Shown one piece after another: positions 17,519 through 58,952 of a stretch of 64,000 nucleotides of DNA. Source of the stretch: an uncultured Microbulbifer sp. (GTDB lineage Bacteria; Pseudomonadota; Gammaproteobacteria; Pseudomonadales; Cellvibrionaceae). Where the stretch lies: positions 620,001 to 684,000 of the forward strand of contig NZ_CANNGQ010000003.1 of NCBI RefSeq assembly GCF_947504145.1. The letters run 5' to 3'. Every line of letters starts with the position of its first letter. Position 1 is the stretch's first letter. The notes below the pieces were generated by a model. The model searched no databases, was not told the origin of the DNA, and saw only the letters and a list, made by a program, of their open reading frames with translations. Both the position numbers and the translations under genes were made by a program.

Positions 17519-17613
17519 TTGATCATGGCGAATTATTAACATCCAACACGCACTTTGGTATGCGACGCCGAGCGTCACTAAAGTCTCAGAATAAGAACCT
17601 TGGAAATTTTGCG

Positions 17614-25790: not shown

Positions 25791-25944
25791 CATCTCGAAT
25801 ATTGAACATCCACAGAAAATCATCCTCATCACAACGAAACTCATGCGCATGGCACCCACAAAAGCTATCATCGGTGCGTCATGCAGTACCGACAAGAAGT
25901 GTTTGGACAGATGTAAAACAATTATAAAAACGAGAGAAAACACC

Positions 25945-28827: not shown

Positions 28828-31133
28828 CGGTTGCCCTCCAGGGTTCGGCTCACCTTCGTCTGCCACAAGGCATAACAAAACAGCAGCGCCAGAATCACCA
28901 TGGAATAAGCGGCGGCATAGGCATACTGGTATTTTTCAAACCCAATGCGGAAGGCCTTGGTGATGAGGATGTCGTTGGCTCCCGCAGGGGCACCGTCGCT
29001 CACCAGATAGATCACGTTGAACATATTGAAGGTCCACACCACCGACAGAATCACTGCGGGGATCAACACCGGTTTCAGTAGCGGCAGGGTGATGCTGCGA
29101 AACTGCAGCCAGCGGCCAGCGCCCTCCACTCGCGCAGCTTCATACAGCTCGCGCGGGATCGATTGCAGGCCGCCGAGAATAACCACCATCATAAACGGAA
29201 TGCTCAGCCACACATTGGTCACCAGCCCGGTAAAAAAGCTCGCGCCGATGGAATCAAACCAGGCCACCGGCGCCACCCCCACCACCTGCAGCGCCTGGTT
29301 GATGACTCCGAATTGCGGGTGAAACATACCTTTCCAGACCAGCGCGGTGATGTAGTTGGGAATGGCCCAGGGCAGAATCAGAATCAGGCGGAACAGGCCG
29401 CGGCCGAAGATGGGTTTGTCCAGCGCCAGCGCCAGTAGTAACGCCAGCCCCACTGCCAGTACAACATTGCTCGCCGTCCACAATACGGTAATCAACAGGG
29501 TCCAGTAGAAGTTGTCGAAATCGAGACTGCGCTCAGTACCCTCCCCCTGCCACAGATCAAAATCCCCGAGGATGGAAGTGTAATTATCCAGACCTATCAG
29601 GCGCGACCACAGCGGTGTGTGCTCGTTGAATACCGTGGTATCGGTAAAGGATAGCAACAGGCCATACAGCAGAGGAAAAAACACCAGCAGGGTCATACCC
29701 AGCATGGCGGGCAGAATATACAGATAGGCAGTGCGATGAGTTTGCCAACCCACCATCAAGGTATTGCGATAACGCCGCCATAACCAGCCCGCCAAAATGA
29801 CCAACAATATCGGTATAGCCCACAACCACACGGGCATGGTCGCAGGCGACGCACCGCGCGCGCGCGAGCGCTCCAACCTCGCCAGGTCGCCGCTGATGCG
29901 CCGCTGCAACTGGTGCAGTTCCGCTTGCGGCTGCGCCGCCCCCTTGACGACTTTTTTCAGTGCATTCTCCAGCGGCACCCATACAAGAGTCATCGCCGGC
30001 AGGTTGGGGATCGGCAGCGTATGTTCCAGCTGCTGGCGGAAGGCCATGGCGGTGTCGTTGGTGGCGATACGCGGGTGTTCAAATGCGCTGATATTGGCGG
30101 GCAACTGGCCGCCCTCGATGGCCATTTTCTCGGCAGACGCGCGGCTGGTGAGATAGTCCATTACCGACACCGCCGCCGCGGGGTTCTTCGACCAGGGGGA
30201 GAGGAACAATCCCTCCACCGCCACCCACGGCGAGAGCGGCTTGCCGCTTTCGCTGTTTATCGGCAGCGGCACCACCCGGTAATTCACTTGCGGAGCGATT
30301 TCCCCCAGCATCCAGGGGCCACTGATCACCATGGCCGCACGCCCCTGATTAAACAGACTGGTGACCAGGGTGCTGCTGGGTTCTTCCGGCAGGATATGGT
30401 CTTCCCGCACCCAGCGCGCCAGCATTTCCAGCGAACGGATATTCGCCGGGCTGTCCAGGTCCAGATTGCCGCCGCGATCAAACGGGCCGGGCCCAAAGCT
30501 GTTCATCAGCGCACCGTGAAAAAATGGCTCGGTATAGCTGTAAGCGAGGCCAAAGCGCCCCGCATTGCGGTCGGTGTGACGCTCTGCTTCCGCCACCATC
30601 GCATCGGTGGTGTGAGGCGGTGTATTCACAAGATCGGTGTTGAGAATCAGCGCAGGGCTTTTGAAATTGAACGGCAGACCGTAAAGCTCGCCGGCAAATG
30701 TCATGGCGTCGATCAGGTTCGCGGGAAAGCGTGCGCGCAAGTGCGCGCTGACATGGGAATCGATGGGGGCCACGGTATTGCCGGCGATTGCCCAGCCACC
30801 CAGTCGATCGTGGGCGAAGACGAACAGGTCCGGGCCCTGGCGACGAGGGAGTGCGGCGGAGAGTTTATCGGCGTAGCCGCCAAACGGCACAGCCAGGGTT
30901 TTTACCTGTACCTGATCCTGGCTGCGGTTGTAGTCGTCAATCAGTTGCTCAAAGGCCACGCGCTCGGCACCGCGGTAACCGTGCCAGAGATTGAGGCTTT
31001 CCGCAGCGCGGGCGTGGCCGGAGACCAGTATCCACAGGAAAAACACCCACCAGAGCCAGCCTGCTGGCAAACACATCGCCAGGGCAGGATGTTCGCCAGC
31101 AGGCCGGCGCTTGGATGATGCGCGAGTCAGCAC
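28824..31133 (-). CDS. Fused sugar-binding protein (MalE type) and ABC permease (MalF type)
   Basis: This 769-residue protein joins two normally separate subunits. Residues about 22-43 form a signal or anchor segment. Residues about 45-420 are an extracellular solute-binding protein (LNLWHGY at the start, AAMVISGPWMLGE in the middle). A membrane segment follows near 433-455 (MPVWLWAIPILLV), then a MalF-like permease to the end with the EAA loop near YEAARVEGAGRW. The start is GTG, overlapping the upstream ATPase gene by seven bases; an ATG 19 codons later is an alternative. Fusion fixes one binding domain to each transporter and removes the free periplasmic receptor pool. I see no frameshift or stop at the junction, so this is a real fusion in this sequence. 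Confidence 0.9.
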   Translation of the reverse strand: MLTRASSKRRPAGEHPALAMCLPAGWLWWVFFLWILVSGHARAAESLNLWHGYRGAERVAFEQLIDDYNRSQDQVQVKTLAVPFGGYADKLSAALPRRQGPDLFVFAHDRLGGWAIAGNTVAPIDSHVSAHLRARFPANLIDAMTFAGELYGLPFNFKSPALILNTDLVNTPPHTTDAMVAEAERHTDRNAGRFGLAYSYTEPFFHGALMNSFGPGPFDRGGNLDLDSPANIRSLEMLARWVREDHILPEEPSSTLVTSLFNQGRAAMVISGPWMLGEIAPQVNYRVVPLPINSESGKPLSPWVAVEGLFLSPWSKNPAAAVSVMDYLTSRASAEKMAIEGGQLPANISAFEHPRIATNDTAMAFRQQLEHTLPIPNLPAMTLVWVPLENALKKVVKGAAQPQAELHQLQRRISGDLARLERSRARGASPATMPVWLWAIPILLVILAGWLWRRYRNTLMVGWQTHRTAYLYILPAMLGMTLLVFFPLLYGLLLSFTDTTVFNEHTPLWSRLIGLDNYTSILGDFDLWQGEGTERSLDFDNFYWTLLITVLWTASNVVLAVGLALLLALALDKPIFGRGLFRLILILPWAIPNYITALVWKGMFHPQFGVINQALQVVGVAPVAWFDSIGASFFTGLVTNVWLSIPFMMVVILGGLQSIPRELYEAARVEGAGRWLQFRSITLPLLKPVLIPAVILSVVWTFNMFNVIYLVSDGAPAGANDILITKAFRIGFEKYQYAYAAAYSMVILALLFCYALWQTKVSRTLEGNR

Positions 31134-32510: not shown

Positions 32511-34094
32511 ATGCGCCAAGCCCCGATTGCGGCTTTTATTGTGACATTTGGCATCACCCTCGTGACTTTATCCGCCTGCTCGGTAAAGCCCGTGGCAATG
32601 GACGATGCCACCATCGACCAACGCGCCAGCGGCGACTGGCAGACAGCGTTTGGCAATCAACAACCCGTCACCGGCCCTATTGACCTCAATGAGGCGATCG
32701 CTCGTGCCATCGCCTACAACATGGATAACCGCCTGAAGTTGATGGAAGCGGTGGTGGCCAATCGCAACCTCAGTTTGTCCCGCTGGGAAATGCTGCCGGA
32801 AATCGCCGCCAGTGCGGGCTACAACCACCGCAACAAACAACACTTCGCCAGCAGCGAAGACGTCAACGGCAACCAGTCCCTGGCCCAGTCCACCTCCCTG
32901 GATAAAACCTACAGCACGGCGGGACTCGAGCTTTCCTGGAATGTGCTCGATTTCGGCATCAACTATCTTTCGGCCAAACAGTCCGCCGACGGGGTGATGA
33001 TTGCGGTCGAACGCCAGCGCAAGTTGATGCACAACGTCATTATGGACGTGGAATACGCGTTCTGGATGGCCGCCGCCGCCCAGCGCGCACAGAGTGAGCT
33101 GCCTGGCCTCATTGCCCAAACACGCAGCGCACTGGAGAAATCCCGCGAGAGTGCGGAGCGCGGATTGCGCCAGACCGAAGCCAGCCTTGCCTATCGCCGC
33201 GACCTGCTGGATTTGATGCAGCAATTGCTCGCGCTGGAAGGCGATATGCACAACGCCAAAATAGAGCTGGCCTCCCTGATGGGGCTGCCACCCGGCAGCC
33301 AATTTACCGTCAGTGCCGCCCCCAGCGATGTGTTGCGCAGCCCCTTTGCGGAAATGAGCGCGCAGGAACTGGCGCAGTACAGCCTGCGCAACCGGCCGGA
33401 ATTACTCGAAGAAGACTACCGCCAACGTATTGCCGCCACCGAAATTCGAAAAGCCTGTTTGCAGTTGCTGCCCGGGCTGGAGCTGCGCTCGGGCTATTTC
33501 TACGACGACAACAGCTACCTGCTCTACAACGACTGGGCGGAGAGTAGCCTGCGCCTGACCTGGGACCTGCTCGGCACTGTCGTCGCCGGCCGCGATCTGG
33601 TGGGCTACGCGAAAGATAGCGAGCGCCTGGGTGATGTGCGCCGCGCTGCACTTACGGTGGCGGTGCTAACTCAGGTGGACCTCGCCTTCAGCCACATACA
33701 GCGCGCCCAACTGAACCACAACTACGCCATGGAAGTGGCGGATATCGATCGCCAGATGGCGAGCCAATCCCAGGCCCGCTGGCGATCCAGCCAGGGCACC
33801 GAACTGGAAAGTATTCACGCCGCCACCCAGTCCCTGCTGTCCAGTGTGCAGCGGGATGTGAGCTACGCAGATTGGCGCAGTGCCAATGGTCGCCTTAGCA
33901 ATGCGGTTGGATTCCAACCGGAGTTCTACATCGACTACCGCCAACCTCTGGAGGTGATTCAGCAGCAGGTGGCGGATATGCGCACCCAGAGCGCCAGTAT
34001 GGAACTGCTACCCGTTGGCGGCTACAACCCGGAAGGGGTGGAAAAGCGCGAGGCGGAAATCCGTGAAGACGGCCAGGCCGCTGCGCACTGGTAA
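32511..34094 (+). CDS. TolC-family outer-membrane efflux lipoprotein
   Basis: This 527-residue protein is an outer-membrane factor of the TolC/OprM group, forming the channel through which substrates cross periplasm and outer membrane. A lipoprotein signal ends in LSAC with the lipidated cysteine at C23. Two OEP repeats follow, with long alpha-helical stretches (for example residues 60-95, 190-240, 390-440). AAGGA precedes the ATG. It heads a plus-strand series with two adaptor-like genes, an M50-adaptor fusion and a giant surface protein, so it is probably the outer-membrane exit of that system rather than a drug pump component. Confidence 0.85.
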   Translation: MRQAPIAAFIVTFGITLVTLSACSVKPVAMDDATIDQRASGDWQTAFGNQQPVTGPIDLNEAIARAIAYNMDNRLKLMEAVVANRNLSLSRWEMLPEIAASAGYNHRNKQHFASSEDVNGNQSLAQSTSLDKTYSTAGLELSWNVLDFGINYLSAKQSADGVMIAVERQRKLMHNVIMDVEYAFWMAAAAQRAQSELPGLIAQTRSALEKSRESAERGLRQTEASLAYRRDLLDLMQQLLALEGDMHNAKIELASLMGLPPGSQFTVSAAPSDVLRSPFAEMSAQELAQYSLRNRPELLEEDYRQRIAATEIRKACLQLLPGLELRSGYFYDDNSYLLYNDWAESSLRLTWDLLGTVVAGRDLVGYAKDSERLGDVRRAALTVAVLTQVDLAFSHIQRAQLNHNYAMEVADIDRQMASQSQARWRSSQGTELESIHAATQSLLSSVQRDVSYADWRSANGRLSNAVGFQPEFYIDYRQPLEVIQQQVADMRTQSASMELLPVGGYNPEGVEKREAEIREDGQAAAHW

Positions 34095-34247
34095 TCAATA
34101 AGTCTTGGAGTGCCGGGACTGCGCCTGACTTGCGCCTCGTACTTAGGCCTCGTGTTGAGTTCATGTGTCTAGGTCGAGTATTTAAAGTCGCGTATGGGCC
34201 GAACCTCCAAGCCAATCCCTGTGGTAGATGTACTCGTGGTATCTGCA

Positions 34248-35075
34248 ATGCAAACTCAAACTCTAGCCCACGCGGCACTAGTGCTGTTGTTGGGGCTCTC
34301 CTTATTCAGTGACGCCGAAGCCGGCGAACAGACTAGCGCCCCGGCCAAACTCAACGCGCTGAGTCGCGTACAACTCTCCAGCGAACTCGCCGCCCGACTG
34401 ACCGAAGTGCGCCTGCGCGCCGGCGACCGCTTTAAACGGGGCGACCTCCTGGCCCGTTTCGACTGCACCGAACTCAAGGCCGAACTGGAAGGTGCCGAAT
34501 CGCAACAGGCGCTAGCCCGCCGGCAACTGGATGCGAACATTTCCCTGCGCCAGCTGGGCGGCAATATCAGTGAACTGGAAATGGTGCAGAGCGAAGCCCA
34601 GCTGGCGGAAGCCAAAGCCAATGCCAAAGTATTGCGACACCGCAATAGCCATTGTGAAGTGCGCGCGCCCTTCGACGGTTTTGTAGTGAGCCGTTCGATC
34701 GAGCCCCACCAAAGGGTGGAAGTGGGTGCGCCACTGTTAGAACTGGTCGACAACCGCGGCCTGGAAGTGGAAGCCATCATTCCCTCCGGCTGGCTGGAAA
34801 AACTCACCATAGGTGCACACTTTGAAGTCACCATCAATGAAACGGGGCGCCAGTACAGCGCTGAACTACAGCGCATAGTGCCGGTGGTCGATCCGGTTAC
34901 GCGCACTGTTCGGGTTATCGGCACCATTGGACAACCGCAGGAAAGTGGCACCGGTGGATTCAATCCCGCACTGCTGATTTCCGGCATGAGTGGCGAAGCG
35001 CACTTTTCCCTTCCGGAAAACAGCGATGCCCTGCTTGCCAATGGTGCAGATCCTGCATTAAGCGGAGCGAACTGA
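34248..35075 (+). CDS. HlyD-like periplasmic adaptor
   Basis: This 275-residue membrane-fusion-type protein has a signal peptide (about residues 1-25, ending DAEA), a lipoyl half-motif (VRLRAGDRFKRGDLLARFD), a coiled-coil hairpin from about 65 to 125, a second lipoyl half (VRAPFDGFVVSR) and a beta-barrel region. It would bridge the inner-membrane component and the TolC-like channel. The start at 34248 has only a weak ribosome binding site; the frame is open 18 codons further upstream, but the signal peptide fits 34248. It ends two bases before the next start. Confidence 0.82.
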   Translation: MQTQTLAHAALVLLLGLSLFSDAEAGEQTSAPAKLNALSRVQLSSELAARLTEVRLRAGDRFKRGDLLARFDCTELKAELEGAESQQALARRQLDANISLRQLGGNISELEMVQSEAQLAEAKANAKVLRHRNSHCEVRAPFDGFVVSRSIEPHQRVEVGAPLLELVDNRGLEVEAIIPSGWLEKLTIGAHFEVTINETGRQYSAELQRIVPVVDPVTRTVRVIGTIGQPQESGTGGFNPALLISGMSGEAHFSLPENSDALLANGADPALSGAN

Positions 35076-35076
35076 C

Positions 35077-36381
35077 GTGGACGCCCGGCTGCTGGAAAAA
35101 CTCAATAATTTTCTCGCACTTGAGAAAAAACTGCGCGGTGCCGCCGATTTGCAACAGATCGCGCGTATCGCCTGTAACGACAGCCAGTCACTGCTGGGTT
35201 TCACTGCCTGTCTGTTTTTTTCCGGCAGTGAACTGAAGCTGATCGGTGGCTCCAATGTCACAACCATAGATGCCACCAGTAGCGAAGCACAGCACTGGCG
35301 CCAACTGGTGCGCAAGCATTTTCCAGATGCCATCCAGCAGGGGCTGGCACAATTGGACATTCCGCTGGCCGCGGCAACCGGCAAAGACATTCAGCATCAG
35401 TCACTCACCCTTGTGCCCCTTGGCACCGGCGGTGCCGAGGGCTGCCTGGCACTGCTACGCACACGGTCACTCTCCGAGCAGGAACAGGAAATCGCGCGGG
35501 AAGTTGCCGCGGCTATTACCCAGGCGATACTGGCGCTACGCGGTACAAAACAATTCACCCTCAGACGCTGGTTGCGTCGTCGGCCACTGGTGATCGCCGC
35601 CGCCATTGCCGCGGTCTGCCTACTACCTGTGCGCCAGAGCGTGCTGGCGCCGGCCACCCTCGCCGCGATAGAACCGCGCATCGTTTCCGCACGCACCGAT
35701 GGCGTGATTCGCGAGATCGCTATACGTCCCAACGCGTCGGTCACCGCAGGCCAGCTGTTGTTCACCCTGGAAGATGCCGAGGTCACCGCGGAGATTGATC
35801 GTGTGCAGCAAGAAATCTCGCTCTACCAGGAGCGCCTGCGCATGACCCGACAATACAATTTCCAGCAGGCTTCCGCCGGTCACAAGCTGGCACAGGCAGA
35901 AACGGATCTATCCATTCGCAATCTCGATCTCGACTTTCAAAAATCCCAACTGGATAAAACTCGCATCAAGGCCGCCAGTGACGGTGTGGCGATCTATACC
36001 GATCCGGCGGAGTGGATTGGCCGCCGTATCCGTGCTGGTGAAAAAGTCATGGAGATAGTGCAACCGGCCGCGCGCCAGATTCAAATCGACCTGCCCACGG
36101 CTGATGCCATCGCACTTCCTGAAAACGCGTCCACCGTGTTCTACGCCGAATCCGACCCGCTGTCGCCCATCGAAGGACAGTTGCACTACCACAGCCTGCT
36201 CACCACCGAGGGCGAAAACCTTCCCGCCAGCTACCGCCTGCTCGCCAGCATCCAGCAGGACCGGCCTCAGGTCCGCATCAATACCCGCGGCCACGCGCGC
36301 ATTTACGGAGCGCGGGTACCTCTCATCTACTACTTACTCCGCCGACCACTGGCCGCGGCCCGCCGCTGGGCCGGAATTTAG
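35077..36381 (+). CDS. GAF-like domain fused to an HlyD-type membrane adaptor
   Basis: This 434-residue protein starts at a GTG one base after the previous stop, with GGAG nine bases before it. Residues 1-165 look like a cytoplasmic GAF-type sensor fold (LQQIARIACNDSQSLLGFTACLFF, then LVPLGTGGAEGCLALLR). A single membrane segment follows near 175-195 after an arginine-rich stretch (LRRWLRRRP), then a periplasmic lipoyl/coiled-coil/barrel adaptor. A sensor on the cytoplasmic end of an adaptor is uncommon and might couple export to a cellular signal. The GAF call is by pattern only; the HlyD part is firmer. Confidence 0.75.
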   Translation: MDARLLEKLNNFLALEKKLRGAADLQQIARIACNDSQSLLGFTACLFFSGSELKLIGGSNVTTIDATSSEAQHWRQLVRKHFPDAIQQGLAQLDIPLAAATGKDIQHQSLTLVPLGTGGAEGCLALLRTRSLSEQEQEIAREVAAAITQAILALRGTKQFTLRRWLRRRPLVIAAAIAAVCLLPVRQSVLAPATLAAIEPRIVSARTDGVIREIAIRPNASVTAGQLLFTLEDAEVTAEIDRVQQEISLYQERLRMTRQYNFQQASAGHKLAQAETDLSIRNLDLDFQKSQLDKTRIKAASDGVAIYTDPAEWIGRRIRAGEKVMEIVQPAARQIQIDLPTADAIALPENASTVFYAESDPLSPIEGQLHYHSLLTTEGENLPASYRLLASIQQDRPQVRINTRGHARIYGARVPLIYYLLRRPLAAARRWAGI

Positions 36382-36420
36382 CGGCATCACAGGAGTACCC
36401 GAGAGGTAAGAGGTAACCAA

Positions 36421-38712
36421 TTGCAGTCTTCGCCCTTTATCAGTCCCGTTATTCGGCAAACCGACACCTGGCCAGAGCTGCGCAAAGACCTGCAGTTTCA
36501 CCGGGTACAGGAAGATGCCGAGCAGCACACCTGGATGCTGTTTGACCCGCTGCGCGGACAATATCTGGAGCTGGGTGAACTGGAAATTCTGGTATTGCAG
36601 CAGTGGCATCTCGGCTGCGAGGAAAAAATTGCCGAGGTAATTGCCCGGGATCACGGCTGCGAGCTTTCTCCCCGACAGGTCGCCGCGGTATACCGCTTTG
36701 CCGTCGACAATGAATTGCTGCAGACCGACAGTGAAACGCTGTCACAAAAGTTGTCTTCCGTCAGCCCGCAGCAACAGCGACTGCATAAATTACAACGCAG
36801 CATTTTCTGGCGCCGCCCACTATTCACACCCGACCTGAGTAGCCGGCTGTTGTTACCCCTGGCCCGGTGTACCGGGACGCGCGGTTTCTATGTCCTGCTC
36901 ACAGTGACAGCCGTCTTCTGCGCAGCCTCCGTAGGGCAGCACTGGACAGAATTCCTGGCCTACTTTAATGCCAGCTGGAACGCCGTGGGCGCCCTCACCT
37001 TTTTCTGTTGCTACCTGCTGCTGAGCCTATTCCACGAACTGGGCCATGCCAGCGTGGCCAGACTCTACCAGGTGCGTGCCAACAGCATCGGGGTCGGATT
37101 GATCGCACTGATGCCCATCATGTTCAGTGAAATTACCGACGCCTGGCGGCTGCCAAGAAAAGCGCGTTTGCACATTTCCGCCGCTGGCGTTCTGTTTGAA
37201 GCCACCCTCGGGATGGCCGCGGCGGTAGCCTGGTGCCTGCTCGACGATGGTCTGCTACGGGCACTGGCCTTCTACCTCTTTACCACCTCACTGGTGACGA
37301 CACTGTTCATCAATGCCAACCCGCTAATGAAGTTTGACGGCTACTACCTGCTGAGTGATTACACTCGAGAAAAAAACCTGCAGCAGAGCGCAACCAATGC
37401 TTTCCGCAGCTGGAGCTGGTCAAAGTTATTGCGGGGACAACCGGCACCCATTGATCGCCGCCAGCGATTGCTCGCGCTGTTCGGCTTCGCCAGTCTGCTG
37501 TATCGCATTGTGGTCTTTGCCACCATCAGTTACGCCGTCTACCAGCTGCTGTTCAAAGCCGCGGGCCTCGCCCTATTTCTACTGTGTATTGTTCTGCTTA
37601 TCGCAGTTCCCGCTTACCGGGAAGTGAGCGCCTTTTTCAATCATGTGAAAAAACAGAAAGCCCTGCTGCAGGGCAATCCCAAGCCGTCGCAACAGGACAC
37701 CACCATGGAGAATAATGATCCGGAGAGTGCAACGAGCGGCCAGCCGGAGAATGCCCACACCAGTAGCCTCAATCGCATTCAACAGCTGAAACAGACCCTG
37801 CAGGTATTGAATCCCTGGGTAGTCGGCACTCTGTTCACACTAGTCGCGATACTGCTGACGCCTCTGCCGTGGCCGGTTCAATTCCCGGCCAGCACTTACT
37901 TCGCCAATCAGCAAAACGTCATGGCGCCGGCGGGCGCCGTGCTGCAAACCCTGTCCGTGACTCCGGGTACCGCAGTAAGCGCCGGCACCGTCATCGCCGA
38001 GTTACACGACAATGAACTGGACTACCGCATCGCCCGCACCCGGCAGGAATTGAAATTATTGAACCGCCGCCAGCACAGCGATGGCTTTGCGACAGAGCTC
38101 GACGTGCTGGACGGTGTTTATTTGCAGGATCTACTCAGCAAGCAGCAGTTACTGCGCGCACTGGAAACCGAAAAACAGCAACTACAGATAGTGGCCAGCA
38201 CCTCGGGTACCGTCGATTGGGTTCTGCCGGGGCTGGCGCCGGGACAATACCTTGACGTCAATATGCTGTTTATCGCCATCGCCGATCGCAGCACCTTGCG
38301 GGGCCACGCCTATGGTGAGCCGCAGCAACTGAGGCGCTTGCCGTCAGCGGAAGGACAGAAAAGTACACTGACCGGCAGACTTTTTGTACACGGCCGCTGG
38401 CAGCCGTTGCCGGTTACCGTCAACAGCGTGGGACAGATCGCATCGCGACGTATTCAGGACCCCGCGCTCAGTTCCGAGCACGGTGGCCCACTACAGGTAC
38501 TGCCCGATAACCCGGAGCGCAGTGCAGAAGCATTGCACCTGCTCAATTTCGAATTACAGGCTGCCAGTGATGCCGCCCTGGGAGCGCAGGATTTGTCCAT
38601 CGCCAGATCCCAGCGTACCGGTACCCTGGTGCTGTTTGGTGAACCCGTCAGCCTGATGCAACTGTTTGTCGACCGGATCGCCGGTGTACTGATTCGCGAA
38701 AGCGGCGTTTAA
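36421..38712 (+). CDS. M50-type membrane metalloprotease fused to a lipoyl/HlyD adaptor, with PqqD-like N-terminus
   Basis: This 763-residue protein begins at TTG with GAGGT just upstream. Residues 1-105 resemble a PqqD-type or winged-helix peptide-binding domain (FDPLRGQYLELGELEILVL). A polytopic region from about 140 to 410 carries the site-2-protease motifs HELGH (H205, E206, H209) and NPLMKFDGYY (N300, D306), the zinc-binding and catalytic positions of M50 peptidases. After a hydrophilic stretch and a membrane segment near 465-480, a lipoyl-type adaptor region (about 490-740) follows. Similar proteins are annotated as putative peptide zinc metalloproteases. Joining protease and adaptor suggests processing during export of the giant protein encoded next. 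Substrate and direction are inferred. Confidence 0.8.
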   Translation: MQSSPFISPVIRQTDTWPELRKDLQFHRVQEDAEQHTWMLFDPLRGQYLELGELEILVLQQWHLGCEEKIAEVIARDHGCELSPRQVAAVYRFAVDNELLQTDSETLSQKLSSVSPQQQRLHKLQRSIFWRRPLFTPDLSSRLLLPLARCTGTRGFYVLLTVTAVFCAASVGQHWTEFLAYFNASWNAVGALTFFCCYLLLSLFHELGHASVARLYQVRANSIGVGLIALMPIMFSEITDAWRLPRKARLHISAAGVLFEATLGMAAAVAWCLLDDGLLRALAFYLFTTSLVTTLFINANPLMKFDGYYLLSDYTREKNLQQSATNAFRSWSWSKLLRGQPAPIDRRQRLLALFGFASLLYRIVVFATISYAVYQLLFKAAGLALFLLCIVLLIAVPAYREVSAFFNHVKKQKALLQGNPKPSQQDTTMENNDPESATSGQPENAHTSSLNRIQQLKQTLQVLNPWVVGTLFTLVAILLTPLPWPVQFPASTYFANQQNVMAPAGAVLQTLSVTPGTAVSAGTVIAELHDNELDYRIARTRQELKLLNRRQHSDGFATELDVLDGVYLQDLLSKQQLLRALETEKQQLQIVASTSGTVDWVLPGLAPGQYLDVNMLFIAIADRSTLRGHAYGEPQQLRRLPSAEGQKSTLTGRLFVHGRWQPLPVTVNSVGQIASRRIQDPALSSEHGGPLQVLPDNPERSAEALHLLNFELQAASDAALGAQDLSIARSQRTGTLVLFGEPVSLMQLFVDRIAGVLIRESGV

Positions 38713-38792
38713 ACAACTCTGCACTCAACGCAGAAATTTCTCGGCCGGCCAGGAAGGCCTGCGCCAGAAAACCACAAGGAAAGAGGTATCCC

Positions 38793-41700
38793 ATGGAACT
38801 CAATGAGTTTTCCAGATCATCCCTGGCCCAGGCGATCAACCAGCAGGGCCGCCAGCTCACCAGCCTGCGTCGCACGCTGGAAAAACGGGTTCTACTGGAT
38901 GCGTCCGTGGCGGCGGATATCAGCCATTCGACCGGTGATACCTCAGCCCCGGACACTGCCGAAAGTGCAGACACCAAAAACGGCAACAACCAGATCGGTA
39001 ACAGTGGCGACGAGGACAACACCGCAGAATCATCGACACCGGGTGCCAGCCAACGCCAGGAGCTGGTCGTCATCGACCTGCAATTGGACGATGCCCAGGC
39101 ACTGATCGATGACCTGATCCAGCAGGCCGATGAGGTTACCGAGGAGAATGGATTTCTTCAGCTCGCCACCGGCGAGCGCAGCGTCAGCCTGCTGACACTG
39201 GATGCCGACGACAGCCTGCAAACGGTGACGGATTATCTCACCCACAGCGACCAGACCTACGACGCCATCCACCTGATCTCCCACGGCGGTGCCGGCGGTA
39301 TCGACGTGGGCGGGGAAGAATTATCCCTGACCAGCCTTGTCGCCAATGAAGCAGGCAGCCACAGCGCTCAGTTGCAAAGCTGGGAAACCAGCCTGAGCGC
39401 AAATGCCGATATCCTGTTGTATGGCTGCAATACCGGCTATAGCCTGACCGGCGAGCAGTTTATCGAACAGGTTGCCAGCCTCACTGGCGCAGACGTGGCG
39501 GCTTCCGATGATGCCACCGGTAGTGCGCTGCGCGGTGGTGACTGGGAGCTGGAGCAACAGAAAGGCGAAGTGGAAACCGATATTGCTTTTTCCAAGTTGC
39601 TGCAGGGCACCTGGGAAGGATTGCTCGCCGCAGAGCCCGGTGCCACCATCGATGCGCCCGCGGAAGATTTCATCAATGAATCCACCGATATCACCATAGA
39701 ATTCGACAACCTGGGCACCGACACAGGCTATGGTCCCTTCCTGGATGTAGTGCTAGGCCCCGGTGCAGACTTGCAGAATATCGGCGGTTCACAGGGTGCC
39801 AGCTTTGTCGAATACACCTTTACCGGCGGCCAGTGGGTAGATAGCAATGGCAACCCGGTGCTGTACCATCCCTATGATTTCAACCAGACCGGGGCCATCC
39901 CCCTGCCACCGGGCCAGGGCGAAGGCTCCACCTGGTACGCGATTCAATTGCCGTTCGGATCTTTTACCGGGGACCAGCCGCCTTACGAAATCATCGCCTC
40001 GATTTTGCTTGACGAGGCCACAGGCGCGATGGTGGGCACACCCATTCCGATTTGGGTCAGACCCGGCTTTGCCTACGGTAACGACCCCCTCAACAACCCG
40101 GATGTAGACCCGCCGATTGTCGCGCCCCCCATCGTCGACCAGATTACCCCCACTGTGATGCTGGTGGACAAGGTGGCGCTGGACGGCGATGGCGATAATG
40201 CGTCCATTGGCGACGACGGCGAGACGGTCACCGGGCCCAGCGAACCGGTGACCTGGCAGGTAACCGTCGATATTGCCAATGCTTCGCAGATCGACAATCT
40301 GGTGATCACCGAAGAAATACCAGAGAACTTTTACTATCTGCCGGGCACGGTAACCGTAACCTACGCAAACGGCGCTACACCCAACTTCACCATCACCGAA
40401 CCACCGGAAGGGGCAAACCTCAATTCCGAGTTGATCGTCACTTTTACGGACCCTGTCGAGGGCACCACCGTCGACAATGACATAGTAATTACCTACTCCG
40501 GCTACGTGCCGGATGTCGACGCCAATGGCAATCCCATTGTGATCAATGACGGGGCCAATGACGTGGTACTGAATACCGCCTCCGTCACCGGCGACTATAA
40601 CGGACAAACCGTCACCGATGATGACGATGCACAAATCATTGCAACCGCCACGGCCCTGCAGAAAGACGTTGCCCTGATACAGGATAACGGTGACACCGGG
40701 TTTACCCCCGGAGACCGCGTGCAGTACACCCTGACGATGCAGGTTTCCGACTATATGTCGTTGGATAACCTGGTCGCGAACGATCTGGTTGGGGATGGTC
40801 TGGAAGTAGATCCGAGCTCCATTTCGATGGAAGTTTTTTTTAACGGCGACACTTTCGCCGACACGACCGTCGGTGCCGGAAACTCCACGGTAACGGTAAA
40901 TGGCAATGGATCCACTTCCGTAAACGTAAATATCTCCCAGGAACTAGCAGATCGCGGCATTACTTCCGGCAACCTGGAAGGCGACCTGGTACCGGATGCC
41001 GTCACAGATGGCACCACTACCGTCACCATCACTTATGAAGCCACAATCCTTGAGCGATACGTTGAAACCGGCAACGCCGTTGATGCGCTGGATACCATCA
41101 ACAACCAGGCCAGCGTGAGTGGCACTGCCACATCGGCGAATGGGCAAACGGTCGAGAACAACAGCTCCGAGGAAATCGTTATACAAGGCGCGGACTCCAG
41201 CAAAAGTGTGTACGCGGTCAATGGCAGCACAAATCCAGACGACCTGGATGAGATTTCTGTTGGCGACTCGGTAACCTTTGCCATCGAGGTTGATCTGGGC
41301 ACGCTTGACTATCAAGGTATTACCCTCACGGATTACCTGCCGCAGCCAGTGTTCCTGGCTCAGGCGCCCACGTTTGTTGATACCGCACAAGGCACGAATA
41401 CGCCGGGCGTCAATCAGTGGGGTTTTGGCCCGAATACAGAATTCGCCAGCTGGCCACCCGGGTACCTGGACGGTGCCAATGTCACTACGAGCGCCGATCT
41501 CGGCAACAACTCGATCACATGGAATTACGAAGCGGTAAACCAGGACAACTCGGCAGGGGGCATCGTACAGCTGCTGTTTACCGTAGAGGTGCAGGACCAA
41601 CCCTTCACCGATGGCTTGCAACTGACCAACATCGCCTCGGTTGCCATTGAGAATACCGATGGCACTACCATCCTCGACCCAGATGGCGTTCAGGTTGAAG

Positions 41701-44700
41701 TACTGTCACCAGAGCTCATCCTCACCAAGGGTGTGGTTTCTACCGATAACGGCAATGGTATTTTCGATCCCACCACAATTGGGCCAGTCACGTTTGAAGG
41801 CCCCGGGGGGGCCGGAACCCCACCCTGGGCCGGCGGCCCGATTACCAGTGGCAATCTGGATACCGCACCGATTGATTCGAACCTCAGTGACGTGGATGCC
41901 GGGGACACAGTCAAGTTTGCGATCACCCTGGAAAATACCGGGGGGTCCGACGCCTTTGACCTGGTAATCAGCGACTCCCTACCTCCGGGTTTTGAAATTC
42001 CAGCGGGCGCACCAGGACTCAACCTGCAGGTATTTACCGGTGCAGGTGACCCGGTGAACTTCAGCGGAGACCTGTTCAGCGGAGGTATTACGCTGGAAGA
42101 CCCTTCCGCCATGGAAGGTGCACTGAACGAGGGCCGGGACCCGGATACCGGAGCCACCACCGATGGCAGCAACATCATCATCATTACTTATGACCTGATT
42201 GCCAGCGACGATGTACGGCCCAATCAAATCATTGAAAATACCGCACAACTGGAAGAGTACGGCGGTGTTGATGAAGGCAACGACTACACCGCGGGCAACT
42301 CCAATATCAATTGGCAGGATGACGCAGATGTAGAAATCGCGGGCAACACCGTGGAAAAAGACTTGGTCGGCACCAATATCAATTCCACTACCAATGCCAA
42401 TAATGAAGCCGTTATTGGCGAGGTCATTACCTACACCGTCACACTGACGATTGCTGAAGGGGAAACACCCTCAGCCAGTATTCGGGATACTCTGGATCAG
42501 GGACTGGAATTTATCGGTATTACGTCGGTAACCACATCATCCGGCGATATTGCCTCTACAGTGCCGCTAACACCCGCGGGGTTAGCGCCAACCGTCAATG
42601 GGCAGCAAGTTATCTTTGACCTGGGCGATATCACAAATACCAATCGCGACAACAGCGTAGCCGAAACCATTACGATCACCTATGAAGTGCTGGTGGATAA
42701 CGTCGCGGCTAACCAGAGCGGTGCTCAGCGCAATAACAACGCGCGCTTCTTCTGGGACAGCACCGATGACACGGTCGACAATCCTACCGTTCAGGACAAC
42801 AACAGCGCGCCCAATGTCACCGTAATAGAGCCGGATCTACAGGTCGATAAAACCCTGACCAATACACCGGTACCCATCGACGGCGGCGATGCAGTCCAGT
42901 ACACCATTGTCGTCTCACACTCAGCCTTTTCCGACACCGACGCCTTCGATGCGACCTTTACCGATACCTTGCCGCCGGAGCTCACCGGTGTTGCGCTCAG
43001 CAGCGCGACCTTGACCGTGAATGGGCTAGATACCGATGTACTCAATCTTTTTCAGACCAACGGCAATACCATTGAAACAATTCCCGGTCAGTCCTTCGAC
43101 CTTTTATTTGGCGATACGCTGACACTGGTTGTGGATGCCACGGTCGTCAATAACGTATTGGTAGGCACCCAGGTTTCAAACACGGCGACCGTCGACTGGC
43201 AGAGTATTGATGGCGACGACCCCAATGAGCGCACCGGCGAGGACGGTGCCGGCGGCTCTCCCGACGACTATGAAACCGACGATACGTTTAACTTCACGAT
43301 AACTTCGCCAGAGGCCGCGAAAATTATCGTCCAGAGCTCCATCGAAGACGCGTTCAACGATCGCGCCCAGGTCGTCATCGGCGAGACGGTAATCTTTCTC
43401 GCCGGAATTTTGATACCGGAAGGCGTGGTGGAGGATGGCAACTTTACCGATACCCTGCCCGCGGGCATGGAATTCGTGAGCCTGAACAACATCATTATCG
43501 GCAATGATCTCACCTTGACCGGCAGTACATTTGGCCCACCGACAGAAACTGTTAACCCGGATGGAAGCACCACTCTTGACTTCGGCTCGGTAGATCAGAT
43601 TTTAAATGTCGGCGGCCAGGACCCTCTGGAGATCGATGATCTGATCGCCTTCGTGTATACGGTACGTATCACCAACGTCGACACCAATCAGGCCGGCACC
43701 GATCTGACCAACAACGCCGAGTTCACGTCCAGCGTCAATAACGTATCGAGCTCTGCAACGGTAACCGTCATCGAGCCACAGCTGACGATCGATAAATCCG
43801 CCAATATTCTTCAGGGCGATAACGGTGACCTGGTCAACTACACCATTACTGTCGAAAACCCGGATGACGGCAGCAGTACCACCGCCTACGACATCAGCTT
43901 CAGTGATCCACTACCGGCCGAACTCACCGGTGCCACGGTCAGCGCCACACTGACCTCCGGCGCCGGGATTTCGGATATCTCCGGTAATTTCGTCATCGTT
44001 GGTGGGGAAGTAGTGCTCGACCCGCAAGCGGCACTGGATTTGGAGCCGGGCGAACTGGTTACCATTACCGTGTCTGGAACCCTCGCCAACACCGTCGCCG
44101 GCAGCACCATCACCAATACCTCCGATATCGACTGGACCAGCCTTGACGGCGCAGATCCCAATGAGCGAACCGGTGACGATGGTGAGGGTGGCCCACTCAA
44201 CGATTACGCCACCAGTGATCAGGTTGAAATCACGGTGAATGGGCCGGCATTCGAGAAAACTCTGGTTTCCACTTCGCAAAACGACGGTCTGAACGATGAC
44301 ACTGAAGCAACCATTGGCGAAATCGTTACCTTCTCGGTTACTGTCACTGTTCCGGAAGCAACCCTGAGCGGGCAGATTACCGACGTCTATGGCCCCGGTT
44401 TTGAATTCATCGATCTCGTCGGTGTCTCCGCCAGTAACCCGGGGGCAACTCCCATCACTCCCGGGGATGTTACCGTCACAAACGATGCCGGTAATAACAC
44501 GGTGGAATTCGACTTCGGCACACTGCAGAATACGGACACCGACAACACCACCGTGGAAACCATCACCCTGACGTACCGGGTGCGGGTGACCGACATTCCC
44601 GCCAATGTGCAGGGCGTTACGCTCACCAACGATGCCACGCTCAGCTACGACACCGATGGCGACACCATTCCGGATGCCGATCTCACCGACGACGCATCCG

Positions 44701-47700
44701 TGGATATCGTCGAGCCGGAACTGATCGTCGATAAACAACTGTTAAGCGGATCACCGCTGACACTCGGGGGGCTCGCCACTTACCAGCTCACCATTCGGCT
44801 CGATCCTTCCAGCGGTGCCAACGCCTACAACGTCACGATTGAAGACGCGCAGCCGCCGTTTATCGCATCGGTAGAAAATGTGCAGATCAGCGTGACCGGT
44901 GGCTCCCCCACTATCGTCAACAACTCGACCGCTAATTTGCTCTCACTGGACGTCAGTGAAATAGACAGCACCACGGTCATTACCATCACGATCGATGCAC
45001 GGGTTACCAGCGACACCGCAGCGATCGGCCAGAGCACAACGAACACGGTGGAAGTGGAGTCCACCAGCCTGGACACACCTCCGGGAGGCAACGACACCGC
45101 TATTGAGAGGGAGTATGACTATACCGACAGCGTTACTGCGCCCATCGGCGCGGTGGATCTGTTCGTGGACAAGGATGATGCCGGCATCACCGCCGCGCCT
45201 GGCGACGATATTACTTACACCATCAACTACGGTAATACCGGCAATATTGATGCCACCGGTGTGGTCATTACCGAGAGCCTCCCCGAATACGTCACGTTCA
45301 ATCCGGCCGATAACCCGGGCTGGACTCTGAATGGCGACATTCTGACCTTTAACATCGGCGATCTGGCTGCCGGAGCAAGTGGCTCGGTAGAGCTGGTGGT
45401 GACGGTCATTGACCCACTACCCGCCGGCGTTGATGAAACCAATAATACCGTGTCCATTGACGGCGACGAGAGCAACGGCACCGACCCAACGCCGGATAAC
45501 AATACCGACGAAGATGTAACACCACTAGAGGCGGCTCCCGACTATGTAATCGACAAGGTGGAGGAATTTGACGATCCCGCGTTCCCCGGCGAGACCATCA
45601 GCTGGAGCATCACCATCACCAATGAAGGCAACCAAGACGGTACCGGCGTAATCATCACCGACCAGTTGCCATCCACGCCCTTTGTTTCCGGTTATACCGC
45701 GAGTGACGGCGGTGTGGTGGATACCGATGCAGGCACGGTAGTCTGGGATATTGGTGATCTCGCGGTTGGTGAAACGGTGACAGTAACGCTAACCGGTGTG
45801 GTAGCGGACCAAGTGCCTCCGCGAATCCCTCAGCAAATCAATGCGGTGGAAGTCACCGACGACGGCACCAATGGCCCAGACCCGACGCCGGAAAACAATG
45901 TCGACAGTGAGACGTTCGATATTACCGAAGTGGATCTTTCCATCACTAAAGACGACGGTGGTATCAGTACTACGCCCGGCGGCACCGTTGTCTACACCCT
46001 GACCTACAGCAACCTCGGGACCGCTCTGGCAGACAATGTAGCCATCACCGAAACACTGCCACCGAACACCACCTTTGATGCGACGAGCTCCACCGCCGGC
46101 TGGGTGGACAATGGCGATGGCACGCTGACGTTTGACCTTGGCACCCTGGATCCCGGCGAAACCGGCACCGTGGAATTCGCGGTGATCGTCGATGCCCCTC
46201 TACCCGCCGGCGTCGAAGAGATACTCAACAATACCGAGATTTCCTATGACGACGGCCGCGGGCCGGACCAGAACCTGGACAACAACACCGCTGAGGACAA
46301 CACCCCAATTGATGCACAGCCAGACTATGTAATTGATAAGATCGAAAACTTCACCGATCCCGCCAACCCCGGTGACACCATCGAGTGGACCATCGAAGTT
46401 AGCAACCAGGGCAATCAGGACGGCACCGGTGTAGTGGTGACCGATACTCTTCCCGATCTGGGCTTGTTCAATAATTTCACCGCAGACAATGGCGGAGTCA
46501 TTGATTTGAGTAACGCCACCGTCACCTGGGATATTGGCGACCTTGCGGTAGGAGAATCGGTGACATTAACCTTGTCGGCAGTCGTAAATGACTTGGTGCC
46601 CTCGGCTATTCCAACTCAGCTAAACAGCGTGGAAGTCTCCGATGATGGCGCCAACGGACCGGATCCCACGCCCGAGAACAATAACGACAGCGAATCATTC
46701 AGAATCGTCTATGTGGATGTGGCCATCGACAAGTCGGCCAGCACCGATACGGCGCTCCCGGGCGACACGGTTATATATACCCTGGAATACACAAACTTCG
46801 GCACGGCACTCGCCACTGGTAATGTGATTACCGAAACACTTCCCGAAAATACACAATTTGATGCAGCCAACTCGACACCGGGCTGGGTAGTCTCCGGCGA
46901 TCAATTCACTTTCGATATTGGCGACCTGGCACCGGGAGATGATGGGCAAATTCAGTTCGCCGTGATCATCGATAATCCGTTGCCTGCCGGTGTCGATACA
47001 TTCAATAACAGCGCCCGTATCGACGACGACGGTAATAATGGCCCCGATCAGAACCCAGACAACAACACCAGTACAGACCGAAGTAATACGGATGTTCTCG
47101 TTCGGGCGGCGCCAGACTACGCCATCGACAAAATCGAGAACTTTGCCGATCCCACACGACCGGGCAATACTATCTCCTGGACCATTGTCGCCACCAATGA
47201 GGGTAACCAGGATGGTACCGGGGTGGTTATTACCGACCAGCTGCCGGATCAATCGTTATTTTCCGACTTTATCGCCAGCGATGGCGGCATTGTCGATACG
47301 GTGGCCGGCACCGTCACGTGGAATATCGGCGACCTGGCGGTGGGCGAGAGTGTGACACTGACGCTGACCACAACGGTAAACGACCAGATCCCCGCGAATG
47401 TCAGCGGGCAGGTCAATACCGTGACTATAGATGACGACGGCGACAACGGGCCCGATCCCACACCGGAAAACAATACCGATAGCGAGACGTTCGAAATCCT
47501 GTTCGTCGATCTGTTTATCGACAAGGACGACAATGGCGTGGTGCCGCGCCCGACCGAGTCCATCATCTACACACTGGACTACGGCAACCGGGGCAACGCC
47601 ACCTCCACCGGCGTGGTCATTACCGAAACCCTGCCCCCCAATACCACCTTCGACGCAGCCAACTCCACCCCCGGTTGGGTGCAGAATGGCGATACCTATA

Positions 47701-48482
47701 GCTTTGACGTGGGCAACCTGGCCCCCGGGGAACGGGGCAACGTTACCTTTGCCGTCACGGTGAATTACCCCATCAGCGTCACCATTCAGCAGACCGAAAA
47801 CACCGCGATCATTACCGATGATGGGGACAATGGCCCAGACCAGAACCCAGACGACAATATCGATACGGATAAGACGCCATTCGAGAACGACACCAATGTC
47901 GACAACATTACTCTGTCGCAACTGCGCCCGGACTATATCTACCCTCCCCGCGAGTGGGTGCGGCAGGCGCCGGAGCTGCACGGGCGGCTGATTTCTGTTG
48001 AGACCGAATCCACCAGCGCCAACCTGCAGGGCGGACGCAACGGCGGTAACTTCGATCCGGCATTTGGCTCCGTAGACGGTAGCTTCTACCCCAATGACTG
48101 GTCGCGGGTATTCCGTAACGACCTCACCATTGACTCAGGCATGAGCCAGAGCAGCCTCGGTCAGCCCGCCAAGTCCAGTCCGCTGGAAATGCACCGGGAT
48201 TTCGCCCCCTACCGCGCAAACTCCCTTTTCGGGGAATTTGAGCGGCCCGCGGCAAGTCCGGAGCCGGAAGGCACTCCGCAATCGGCACCAGCCGCCGAAC
48301 CCCTGCCCGCGCCGCTACAGAGCCTGCCGGAAGAGCCTGTGGACCTGGGTGCAGGGCGCAACCCGGTTCAGCAGCAGCTGGACGAAATTGTCCGCGAATT
48401 GAGCGAGGCGCGAGTATCACCGCTGCTGGCAGCACTGGCGGCAATGACAGTGGAGGAAGCCCAGCACAGGCCCGGCGAGTGA
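38793..48482 (+). CDS. Giant surface protein with LEPR-XLL-like motif, DUF4347 and DUF11-type repeats
   Basis: This 3229-residue acidic protein has no classical signal peptide. At 29-38 LEKRVLLDAS resembles the LEPR-XLL motif found near the N-terminus of very large proteins. Residues about 89-280 form a DUF4347 domain with HLISHGG (H164) and LLYGCNTG (C212), ending at GTWEGLLA. From about 450 to 3030 there are roughly 17 DUF11-like beta-sandwich repeats, many starting (V)DK and containing VTYT..., TLP and DNN...D elements. Two families alternate: doublets of about 310-320 residues (1184-2120) and doublets of 261-264 residues (2249-3030). The last 200 residues are unique and Pro-rich, with no RTX repeats, LPXTG or autotransporter barrel. 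It is likely exported by the four preceding genes and acts as an adhesin or surface filament. Confidence 0.85.
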   Translation: MELNEFSRSSLAQAINQQGRQLTSLRRTLEKRVLLDASVAADISHSTGDTSAPDTAESADTKNGNNQIGNSGDEDNTAESSTPGASQRQELVVIDLQLDDAQALIDDLIQQADEVTEENGFLQLATGERSVSLLTLDADDSLQTVTDYLTHSDQTYDAIHLISHGGAGGIDVGGEELSLTSLVANEAGSHSAQLQSWETSLSANADILLYGCNTGYSLTGEQFIEQVASLTGADVAASDDATGSALRGGDWELEQQKGEVETDIAFSKLLQGTWEGLLAAEPGATIDAPAEDFINESTDITIEFDNLGTDTGYGPFLDVVLGPGADLQNIGGSQGASFVEYTFTGGQWVDSNGNPVLYHPYDFNQTGAIPLPPGQGEGSTWYAIQLPFGSFTGDQPPYEIIASILLDEATGAMVGTPIPIWVRPGFAYGNDPLNNPDVDPPIVAPPIVDQITPTVMLVDKVALDGDGDNASIGDDGETVTGPSEPVTWQVTVDIANASQIDNLVITEEIPENFYYLPGTVTVTYANGATPNFTITEPPEGANLNSELIVTFTDPVEGTTVDNDIVITYSGYVPDVDANGNPIVINDGANDVVLNTASVTGDYNGQTVTDDDDAQIIATATALQKDVALIQDNGDTGFTPGDRVQYTLTMQVSDYMSLDNLVANDLVGDGLEVDPSSISMEVFFNGDTFADTTVGAGNSTVTVNGNGSTSVNVNISQELADRGITSGNLEGDLVPDAVTDGTTTVTITYEATILERYVETGNAVDALDTINNQASVSGTATSANGQTVENNSSEEIVIQGADSSKSVYAVNGSTNPDDLDEISVGDSVTFAIEVDLGTLDYQGITLTDYLPQPVFLAQAPTFVDTAQGTNTPGVNQWGFGPNTEFASWPPGYLDGANVTTSADLGNNSITWNYEAVNQDNSAGGIVQLLFTVEVQDQPFTDGLQLTNIASVAIENTDGTTILDPDGVQVEVLSPELILTKGVVSTDNGNGIFDPTTIGPVTFEGPGGAGTPPWAGGPITSGNLDTAPIDSNLSDVDAGDTVKFAITLENTGGSDAFDLVISDSLPPGFEIPAGAPGLNLQVFTGAGDPVNFSGDLFSGGITLEDPSAMEGALNEGRDPDTGATTDGSNIIIITYDLIASDDVRPNQIIENTAQLEEYGGVDEGNDYTAGNSNINWQDDADVEIAGNTVEKDLVGTNINSTTNANNEAVIGEVITYTVTLTIAEGETPSASIRDTLDQGLEFIGITSVTTSSGDIASTVPLTPAGLAPTVNGQQVIFDLGDITNTNRDNSVAETITITYEVLVDNVAANQSGAQRNNNARFFWDSTDDTVDNPTVQDNNSAPNVTVIEPDLQVDKTLTNTPVPIDGGDAVQYTIVVSHSAFSDTDAFDATFTDTLPPELTGVALSSATLTVNGLDTDVLNLFQTNGNTIETIPGQSFDLLFGDTLTLVVDATVVNNVLVGTQVSNTATVDWQSIDGDDPNERTGEDGAGGSPDDYETDDTFNFTITSPEAAKIIVQSSIEDAFNDRAQVVIGETVIFLAGILIPEGVVEDGNFTDTLPAGMEFVSLNNIIIGNDLTLTGSTFGPPTETVNPDGSTTLDFGSVDQILNVGGQDPLEIDDLIAFVYTVRITNVDTNQAGTDLTNNAEFTSSVNNVSSSATVTVIEPQLTIDKSANILQGDNGDLVNYTITVENPDDGSSTTAYDISFSDPLPAELTGATVSATLTSGAGISDISGNFVIVGGEVVLDPQAALDLEPGELVTITVSGTLANTVAGSTITNTSDIDWTSLDGADPNERTGDDGEGGPLNDYATSDQVEITVNGPAFEKTLVSTSQNDGLNDDTEATIGEIVTFSVTVTVPEATLSGQITDVYGPGFEFIDLVGVSASNPGATPITPGDVTVTNDAGNNTVEFDFGTLQNTDTDNTTVETITLTYRVRVTDIPANVQGVTLTNDATLSYDTDGDTIPDADLTDDASVDIVEPELIVDKQLLSGSPLTLGGLATYQLTIRLDPSSGANAYNVTIEDAQPPFIASVENVQISVTGGSPTIVNNSTANLLSLDVSEIDSTTVITITIDARVTSDTAAIGQSTTNTVEVESTSLDTPPGGNDTAIEREYDYTDSVTAPIGAVDLFVDKDDAGITAAPGDDITYTINYGNTGNIDATGVVITESLPEYVTFNPADNPGWTLNGDILTFNIGDLAAGASGSVELVVTVIDPLPAGVDETNNTVSIDGDESNGTDPTPDNNTDEDVTPLEAAPDYVIDKVEEFDDPAFPGETISWSITITNEGNQDGTGVIITDQLPSTPFVSGYTASDGGVVDTDAGTVVWDIGDLAVGETVTVTLTGVVADQVPPRIPQQINAVEVTDDGTNGPDPTPENNVDSETFDITEVDLSITKDDGGISTTPGGTVVYTLTYSNLGTALADNVAITETLPPNTTFDATSSTAGWVDNGDGTLTFDLGTLDPGETGTVEFAVIVDAPLPAGVEEILNNTEISYDDGRGPDQNLDNNTAEDNTPIDAQPDYVIDKIENFTDPANPGDTIEWTIEVSNQGNQDGTGVVVTDTLPDLGLFNNFTADNGGVIDLSNATVTWDIGDLAVGESVTLTLSAVVNDLVPSAIPTQLNSVEVSDDGANGPDPTPENNNDSESFRIVYVDVAIDKSASTDTALPGDTVIYTLEYTNFGTALATGNVITETLPENTQFDAANSTPGWVVSGDQFTFDIGDLAPGDDGQIQFAVIIDNPLPAGVDTFNNSARIDDDGNNGPDQNPDNNTSTDRSNTDVLVRAAPDYAIDKIENFADPTRPGNTISWTIVATNEGNQDGTGVVITDQLPDQSLFSDFIASDGGIVDTVAGTVTWNIGDLAVGESVTLTLTTTVNDQIPANVSGQVNTVTIDDDGDNGPDPTPENNTDSETFEILFVDLFIDKDDNGVVPRPTESIIYTLDYGNRGNATSTGVVITETLPPNTTFDAANSTPGWVQNGDTYSFDVGNLAPGERGNVTFAVTVNYPISVTIQQTENTAIITDDGDNGPDQNPDDNIDTDKTPFENDTNVDNITLSQLRPDYIYPPREWVRQAPELHGRLISVETESTSANLQGGRNGGNFDPAFGSVDGSFYPNDWSRVFRNDLTIDSGMSQSSLGQPAKSSPLEMHRDFAPYRANSLFGEFERPAASPEPEGTPQSAPAAEPLPAPLQSLPEEPVDLGAGRNPVQQQLDEIVRELSEARVSPLLAALAAMTVEEAQHRPGE
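45159..47880 (+). repeat. Tandem 261-264-residue super-repeats in the giant protein
   Basis: Each unit is a pair: an A repeat beginning PDYVIDK or PDYAIDK (45537, 46320, 47112; periods 783 and 792 bases) and a B repeat beginning VDL/VDV (45927, 46716, 47502). An extra B copy stands at 45159. Units share long stretches such as NEGNQDGTGV and GDLAVGE. Unit similarity is high enough to permit recombination and length change. Confidence 0.85.

Positions 48483-55784: not shown

Positions 55785-58952
<3,168 letters not shown>

Follow-up and report, generated by a model that had tools for sequence, protein, structure and literature searches.

How a protein of 3229 amino acids (aa) could leave the cell when the genes beside it encode adaptors and an outer-membrane channel is the question raised by a locus of an uncultured Microbulbifer sp. 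(GCF_947504145.1). The window analyzed is the whole 64,000-nucleotide stretch at positions 620,001 to 684,000 of contig NZ_CANNGQ010000003.1. Within it, at 32511-48482, five consecutive open reading frames (ORFs) lie on the plus strand, with intergenic gaps of 99, 1, 39 and 80 bp in order. They encode a TolC-like lipoprotein, a HlyD-like adaptor, a GAF-like/HlyD fusion, a fusion of an M50 protease with a HlyD-type adaptor (M50-HlyD) and a giant protein with a LEPR-type tag near its start (Table 1); the ORF call and the Pfam/NCBIfam scans bear out the layout given by a first-pass annotation. These scans matched no ATP-binding cassette (ABC) or RND pump family in any of the five genes, as that annotation had stated, but an LssB-type ABC gene lies elsewhere in the genome, unlinked to the locus, and an AcrB-type RND gene (55785-58940) lies in the window itself. 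We consider it probable that a leader/reader pair, in the style of ribosomally synthesized and post-translationally modified peptides (RiPPs), addresses such giants to an adaptor-TolC exporter, and we infer that the five proteins work as a single machine, with the tag as the address.

The gene set recurs well beyond this organism. Relatives of the M50-HlyD protein number at least 594 in the species-genome collection, including Pseudomonas, Stutzerimonas, Halomonas, Nitrospira, Microbulbifer and Pantoea, and the closest among the matches listed is that of Microbulbifer litoralis; the best 80 loci were kept. When long ORFs are counted as giants even with a truncated start, the order TolC, HlyD, GAF-HlyD, M50-HlyD has a giant before it in 10 loci and after it in 9, the order HlyD, GAF-HlyD, M50-HlyD, giant, TolC is found in 8, and in 15 the four genes have no giant within reach. 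Among the neighbours in 121 loci (ORFs of 80 aa or more, 22 largest clusters), the widespread clusters are HlyD/M50 (119 loci), giants (73) and TolC (55). The LEPR motif lies near the start of 43 out of 74 long same-strand ORFs with a complete start, a count that leaves out loci without a long same-strand ORF (37) or with incomplete ones only (15). The controls gave 0 of 33 long opposite-strand ORFs, 4 of 929 shorter ORFs, 2 of 815 internal tiles and 0.24% of shuffles. Five of the long same-strand ORFs lacking the strict motif have a looser form; the expression was afterwards broadened by a residue class, and later analyses are slightly looser. Under the loose motif, 51 tagged ORFs reach at least 700 aa, and DUF4347 is present in 43 of them. 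The set is thus found together with LEPR-tagged giants in many bacteria, as the first-pass annotation had claimed.

The association also holds between whole genomes of the class. Out of 369 genomes, 66 have a match to the M50-HlyD protein at E 0.001. With the curated LEPR model, 48 genomes score over the cut-off; 35 of them have M50-HlyD, versus 31 of the 321 others (p 2.8e-20). Our own profile of 30 tags hit 17 genomes with an E-value of at most 0.001 (19 with at most 0.01), 16 being M50-HlyD genomes; leaving aside the five genomes that supplied rows, the figure is 11 of 12 (11 of 14 at E 0.01). The other rows come from named genomes that might share species with the tested ones, and in nine comparable loci identical tags came from the five set-aside genomes only. 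With the strong hits of both models joined, M50-HlyD is found in 39 of 42 genomes versus 27 of 327 (p 2.8e-31), where hits of the curated model count as "strong" (27 genomes) by a limit that was fixed after the list was viewed, and at the family level, with all hits of both models, in 34 of 46 versus 15 of 137 (p 1.6e-15, one-sided). The control, the LssB-type type I exporter (62 genomes), shows no association with LEPR (p 0.19 for strong, 0.34 for all hits) or with M50-HlyD (p 0.72) in the same 369 genomes. The first-pass annotation had named a lack of such enrichment as a refutation of its proposal; M50-HlyD is enriched beside LEPR giants, and this check leaves the proposal standing. In some single genomes there are several LEPR frames of about 3,000-14,000 aa (G240:C56, C44 and C84; G107:C1; G053:C1), either on contigs other than that of the M50 match or at distances from it of 12 kb up to hundreds of kb, as expected for a portable tag.

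The candidate reader is the M50-HlyD protein. Its structure model (mean pLDDT, the predicted local distance difference test, of 85) suggests a three-part build of an RRE-like domain, an S2P/RseP-like protease core and a MacA-like adaptor. The modelled N-terminal domain has the PqqD fold, and HExxH and a distal DG lie in membrane helices as in a site-2 protease. The Peptidase_M50 match has 26.7 bits against a cut-off of 27.2 (27.5 bits in the genome search), and the best NCBIfam match is the daptide M50 protease NF041824 (E 2.6e-40, 138.8 bits, cut-off 300), whose profile covers residues 28-396, that is, the RRE-like and M50 parts. PF05402 (PqqD) matches weakly in 6 of 40 M50-HlyD homologues. 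Proof of an RRE domain from Pfam and NCBIfam alone was dropped, since the sequence matches are too weak. The likeness to RiPP leader recognition (PqqD/RRE, e.g. the lasso peptide B1 protein, 6jx3) lies in the predicted RRE-like fold. Unlike in RiPP and daptide systems, the RRE-like and M50 parts share one chain with an efflux-type adaptor, and the linked partners are very long proteins rather than short peptides. The "processing or gating" role that the first-pass annotation gave to this fusion would fit its predicted leader-binding-type domain. The RRE-like fold and the daptide match would also suit a machine whose substrate, to be matured and exported, is a small peptide, the giant being a neighbour with a look-alike leader. 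We regard this as very improbable, since no small-precursor gene stands out in the 22 largest clusters of neighbours, made up of ORFs of at least 80 aa, and the recurrent partner is the giant, usually with DUF4347.

In the giant, the motif LE-x-R-x-(L/M)-(L/F) is found near the N-terminus as LEKRVLL (residues 29-35). The L, E, R and D of the tag are invariant across 36 aligned proteins, and the motif sits after a K/R-rich stretch of low hydropathy; it is followed by D[GA] in the window form and by SAD in a clade of loci with SecA described below. Two further claims of the first-pass annotation hold for this protein: it has no RTX repeats (0 GGxGxD matches), and its N-terminus lacks the hydrophobic stretch of a Sec signal by hydropathy. 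Pfam and NCBIfam matches are DUF4347 (E 2.6e-40), DUF11 and six stretches of TIGR04226, an isopeptide-forming family named as fimbrial. The DUF4347 model predicts a caspase-like fold with His and Cys, as in clan CD. A first Foldseek run was noisy, with two matches at E 0.001 or less, and VIA-align, which re-examined the same chains, ordered the fold matches. Like the clan CD structures CHAT (8tl0), C11 (6n9j) and Tce1 (9qpe), the predicted fold has the His after one core strand and the Cys after the next; this putative peptidase differs from them in standing behind an export-type tag. At the other end, a loosely conserved C-terminal motif occurs in 29 of 49 giants with a known C-terminus (in L106, L148, L174, L161 and others) versus 57 of 694 other ORFs and 11% of shuffles, a post hoc count, since the motif was spotted by eye in the same giants. 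It could act as an additional signal, for export or for retention. Four other giants end in PAW[RK]xxDPL near a hydrophobic stretch.

Table 1. Features of the five-gene locus (window coordinates).
Feature	Coordinates	Strand	Evidence
TolC/OEP-family outer-membrane lipoprotein, 527 aa	32511..34094	+	OEP PF02321, E 7.8e-26
HlyD/MFP periplasmic adaptor, 293 aa	34194..35075	+	RND_mfp TIGR01730, E 5.1e-35, over cut-off
GAF-like/HlyD fusion, 434 aa	35077..36381	+	HlyD_3, E 4.4e-11
M50-HlyD fusion, 763 aa, TTG start	36421..38712	+	Peptidase_M50 and HlyD_3
PqqD/RRE-like domain of M50-HlyD, residues 16-102	36466..36726	+	
S2P/M50 core of M50-HlyD, residues 186-316 (HELGH 205-209, FDG 305-307)	36976..37368	+	
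MacA/HlyD-type adaptor domain of M50-HlyD, residues 483-741	37867..38643	+	
Giant LEPR/DUF4347/DUF11 protein, 3229 aa, probable cargo	38793..48482	+	Pfam/NCBIfam
LEPR-type tag core of giant, residues 29-36, LEKRVLLD	38877..38900	+	own profile, E 1.3e-7 (not independent, window tag among its 30 rows); NF012209, 12 bits
DUF4347 of giant, residues 91-278, predicted caspase/CHAT-like fold (Cys212, His164)	39063..39626	+	
C-terminal segment of giant, loosely conserved motif [GSTPA][LFV]xx[QK][LFVI]	48354..48479	+	

Among the products of the smaller genes, the TolC-like protein has the lipobox LSAC in a by-eye reading, and the product of gene 3 has a single hydrophobic stretch (residues 171-189, by hydropathy) and a GAF match of 17.5 bits, below the cut-off of 22.4.

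Under the leader/reader reading, the RRE-like domain of M50-HlyD would bind the LEPR-type tag at the inner face of the inner membrane, and the S2P-type site would cut or gate the tag region. M50-HlyD would then pass the giant to the adaptors, which would couple to the TolC channel, and the giant would be displayed outside the cell; DUF4347 may later process the giant or its tag. LapA and LapG provide the model of a retention plug with a release protease, and by analogy the set could instead anchor or retain a giant exported by another route, with LEPR as the plug and DUF4347 or M50 as the release protease. The adaptor-TolC parts, a tag at the very N-terminus and a peptidase-like domain directly behind it agree with such a role, and the conserved C-terminal motif could serve as the export signal. 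However, the giant starts without a Sec-type hydrophobic stretch and LEPR is preceded by the K/R-rich, low-hydropathy stretch, and retention of this kind seems improbable to us. The general scan gave no named retention-module family of LapA-type adhesins among the NCBIfam matches of the giant at E 0.01.

The window set shares with type I secretion (HlyBD-TolC, LapBCE) the adaptor, the TolC-type channel and a very large repetitive cargo. Type I systems have a linked ABC transporter and RTX repeats in the cargo, whereas the window locus has an S2P-type protein in the place of the transporter and an N-terminal tag on the giant. An ordinary unlinked type I exporter could nevertheless carry the giant, the five-gene set only maturing or retaining it. 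The source genome does have an unlinked LssB-type ABC gene over the cut-off (794 bits), whose neighbours include, by eye, TolC-like and HlyD-like ORFs, and a repeat-rich ORF. LssB exporters are also found in G213 and G245, two LEPR genomes lacking M50-HlyD, and a published Vibrio LEPR giant carries RTX domains (PMC10868602), an indication that type I secretion serves some LEPR proteins at least. Against this, in the tested genomes of the branch to which the window belongs, LssB is over the cut-off in 1 of 20 (the source genome only) and Peptidase_C39 is found in 6 of 20. Neither profile is present in 12 of 20, also setting aside one near-miss (G193, 598 bits); these tests covered the LssB and Peptidase_C39 profiles, PrtD-type ABC genes being outside them. 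LEPR and LssB are unassociated across the 369 genomes, as said, and the giant has no GGxGxD repeats. We consider this route unlikely for the window giant and reject it as the general carrier, not for every genome. Export by an unlinked ABC system was what the first-pass annotation had named as able to overturn its proposal, and the proposal withstands it: such a gene is present in the source genome, but neither profile is in most tested genomes of the branch. The source-genome region (L198, G000:C1:1471200-1491184) contains an LssB/LapB-type gene with TolC-like and HlyD-like ORFs, and at the contig end an ORF whose start reads as an AD-repeat and which may belong to a large repetitive gene.

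A module of this kind has been described before. Kamneva, Poudel and Ward (2015; PMC4452313) reported loci in which a secondary SecA_DEAD ATPase is surrounded by GAF-HlyD, M50-HlyD, HlyD and, in some cases, OEP genes, and proposed a function in secretion; in the available part of the paper, the absence of an ABC transporter is remarked on, with M50 proposed as the inner-membrane pore and SecA_DEAD as the energy source. That part mentions no cargo, leader tag or RRE-like domain (LEPR, giant and cadherin have 0 occurrences), and we found no other description of the module in the open-licence PubMed Central literature. The kind of machine is therefore already known from sequence, and the "undescribed" of the first-pass annotation holds for the cargo, not named in the available text, and not for the machine, whose SecA_DEAD-containing version was published in 2015. 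Both loci have adjacent GAF-HlyD, M50-HlyD and HlyD genes (GAF below the cut-off in the window) and no ABC gene. In contrast to the published module, the window locus has no SecA_DEAD gene, and the only match over the cut-off in its genome is canonical SecA (448.9 bits). A hidden secondary SecA was rejected, the next match (22.4 bits) falling in an ORF judged by eye to be RecG.

Among neighbours in other M50-HlyD loci, 6 of 10 scanned are SecA_DEAD proteins. In a midpoint-rooted FastTree of 113 M50 proteins (one M50-HlyD protein of over 500 aa per locus, L048 of G330 left out), the SecA-linked loci fall within one clade of 16 tips (support 0.88), 7 of which have SecA in the fetched stretch, and SecA is beside the M50 gene in 0 of the 97 tips outside it, within the fetched stretches, some of which are short. 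The window locus belongs to this SecA-less branch. The tree places 19 of the 20 genomes used for the ABC-exporter tests; motif hits in L071 and L039 are probably due to chance and were counted as exceptions. Branch sizes are uninformative on abundance, because the 80 named loci are the best matches to a window-type alignment. At least eight window-branch genomes have a single SecA_DEAD match genome-wide at E 0.001 (G162, G224, G279, G291, G116, G319, G357 and G330, the last not in the tree). Other genomes of the branch have two, the second of which was inspected in the source genome only, and the class-wide search listed too few places per genome to count second SecA genes everywhere. An ABC-ATPase cluster present in 21 loci was rejected as the motor, since its 16 ORFs by motif are scattered and only 2 of them, in L049 and L052 from two genomes of one genus, are same-strand neighbours of the M50 gene at a distance of no more than 100 bp. 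One further neighbour cluster is present in 17 of the 121 loci.

Several results weigh against the leader/reader reading, besides the two LssB-carrying LEPR genomes and the Vibrio giant. No dedicated motor was found for the SecA-less branch, either in the 22 largest neighbour clusters or in the SecA search of the source genome, and this missing motor is its weakest part; our guess is that its place is most likely taken by canonical SecA/SecYEG or a different shared motor. Pfam PqqD has no match to the window M50-HlyD protein, and a profile of the RRE-like domain matched no PqqD chain among the PDB sequences. The window giant has the N-terminal LEPR motif of LEPR-XLL proteins, but the curated model NF012209 gives its form, LEKRVLLDAS, 12 bits, under the cut-off of 17, so the tag is a divergent LEPR form. 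Three strong-LEPR genomes lack M50-HlyD (G213, G245 and G076, which is fragmented), and among the matches listed for a sensitive M50-HlyD profile, these three and 13 further genomes have the adaptor half only. Conversely, 3 of the 66 M50-HlyD genomes (G126, G216 and G318), none a LEPR genome, match by the adaptor half only; a strong LEPR hit is missing in 27 of the 66 and neither model hits in 23, which may be partly due to weak motif models and fragmented assemblies. The co-variation of tag and clade may also be plain co-inheritance. The more specific proposal of a distinct export route, in which a LEPR leader is read by the RRE domain of an intramembrane protease-adaptor that gates an adaptor-TolC conduit with no ABC, RND or dedicated SecA motor, is a tentative one that we consider less likely than not.

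Other genes were observed near these loci. Related membrane proteins, some GGDEF- or EAL-like by pattern, lie near six of them (L054, L063, L066, L071, L150 and L179), for which control by cyclic di-GMP is possible; in L054, L150 and L179 the giants have the PAW[RK]xxDPL end. Pseudomonas-type loci (L109, L119, L131, L132 and others) have by eye, near M50-HlyD and the giant, tail-collar-type (14 loci), sulfotransferase (11) and GNAT acetyltransferase (10) genes. Upstream in the window, a 769-aa ORF (28824-31133) fuses a solute-binding protein (SBP_bac_8) with a transporter permease domain, and the same half has an alpha-1,3-glucanase-type gene (20037-25652), a GH97 gene (17560-19689) and a LacI regulator (25843-26958); the four are perhaps a locus for alpha-glucan use. 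A tryptophan-halogenase family gene (14114-15793, E 3.7e-179) adjoins a TonB-dependent receptor gene (10944-14096).

The leader/reader reading links two loose ends, the cargo of the SecA_DEAD/HlyD/M50 module of 2015 and the purpose of the LEPR-XLL tag on giants, and the co-occurrence of tag and predicted reader, far above chance, provides a little-studied export module with a cargo that can be tested. The SecA-less branch raises the question of what powers the export. If the reading is true, the recognition of leader peptides, familiar from natural products that are short peptides, would also address some of the largest bacterial proteins, and would do so in widespread bacteria.
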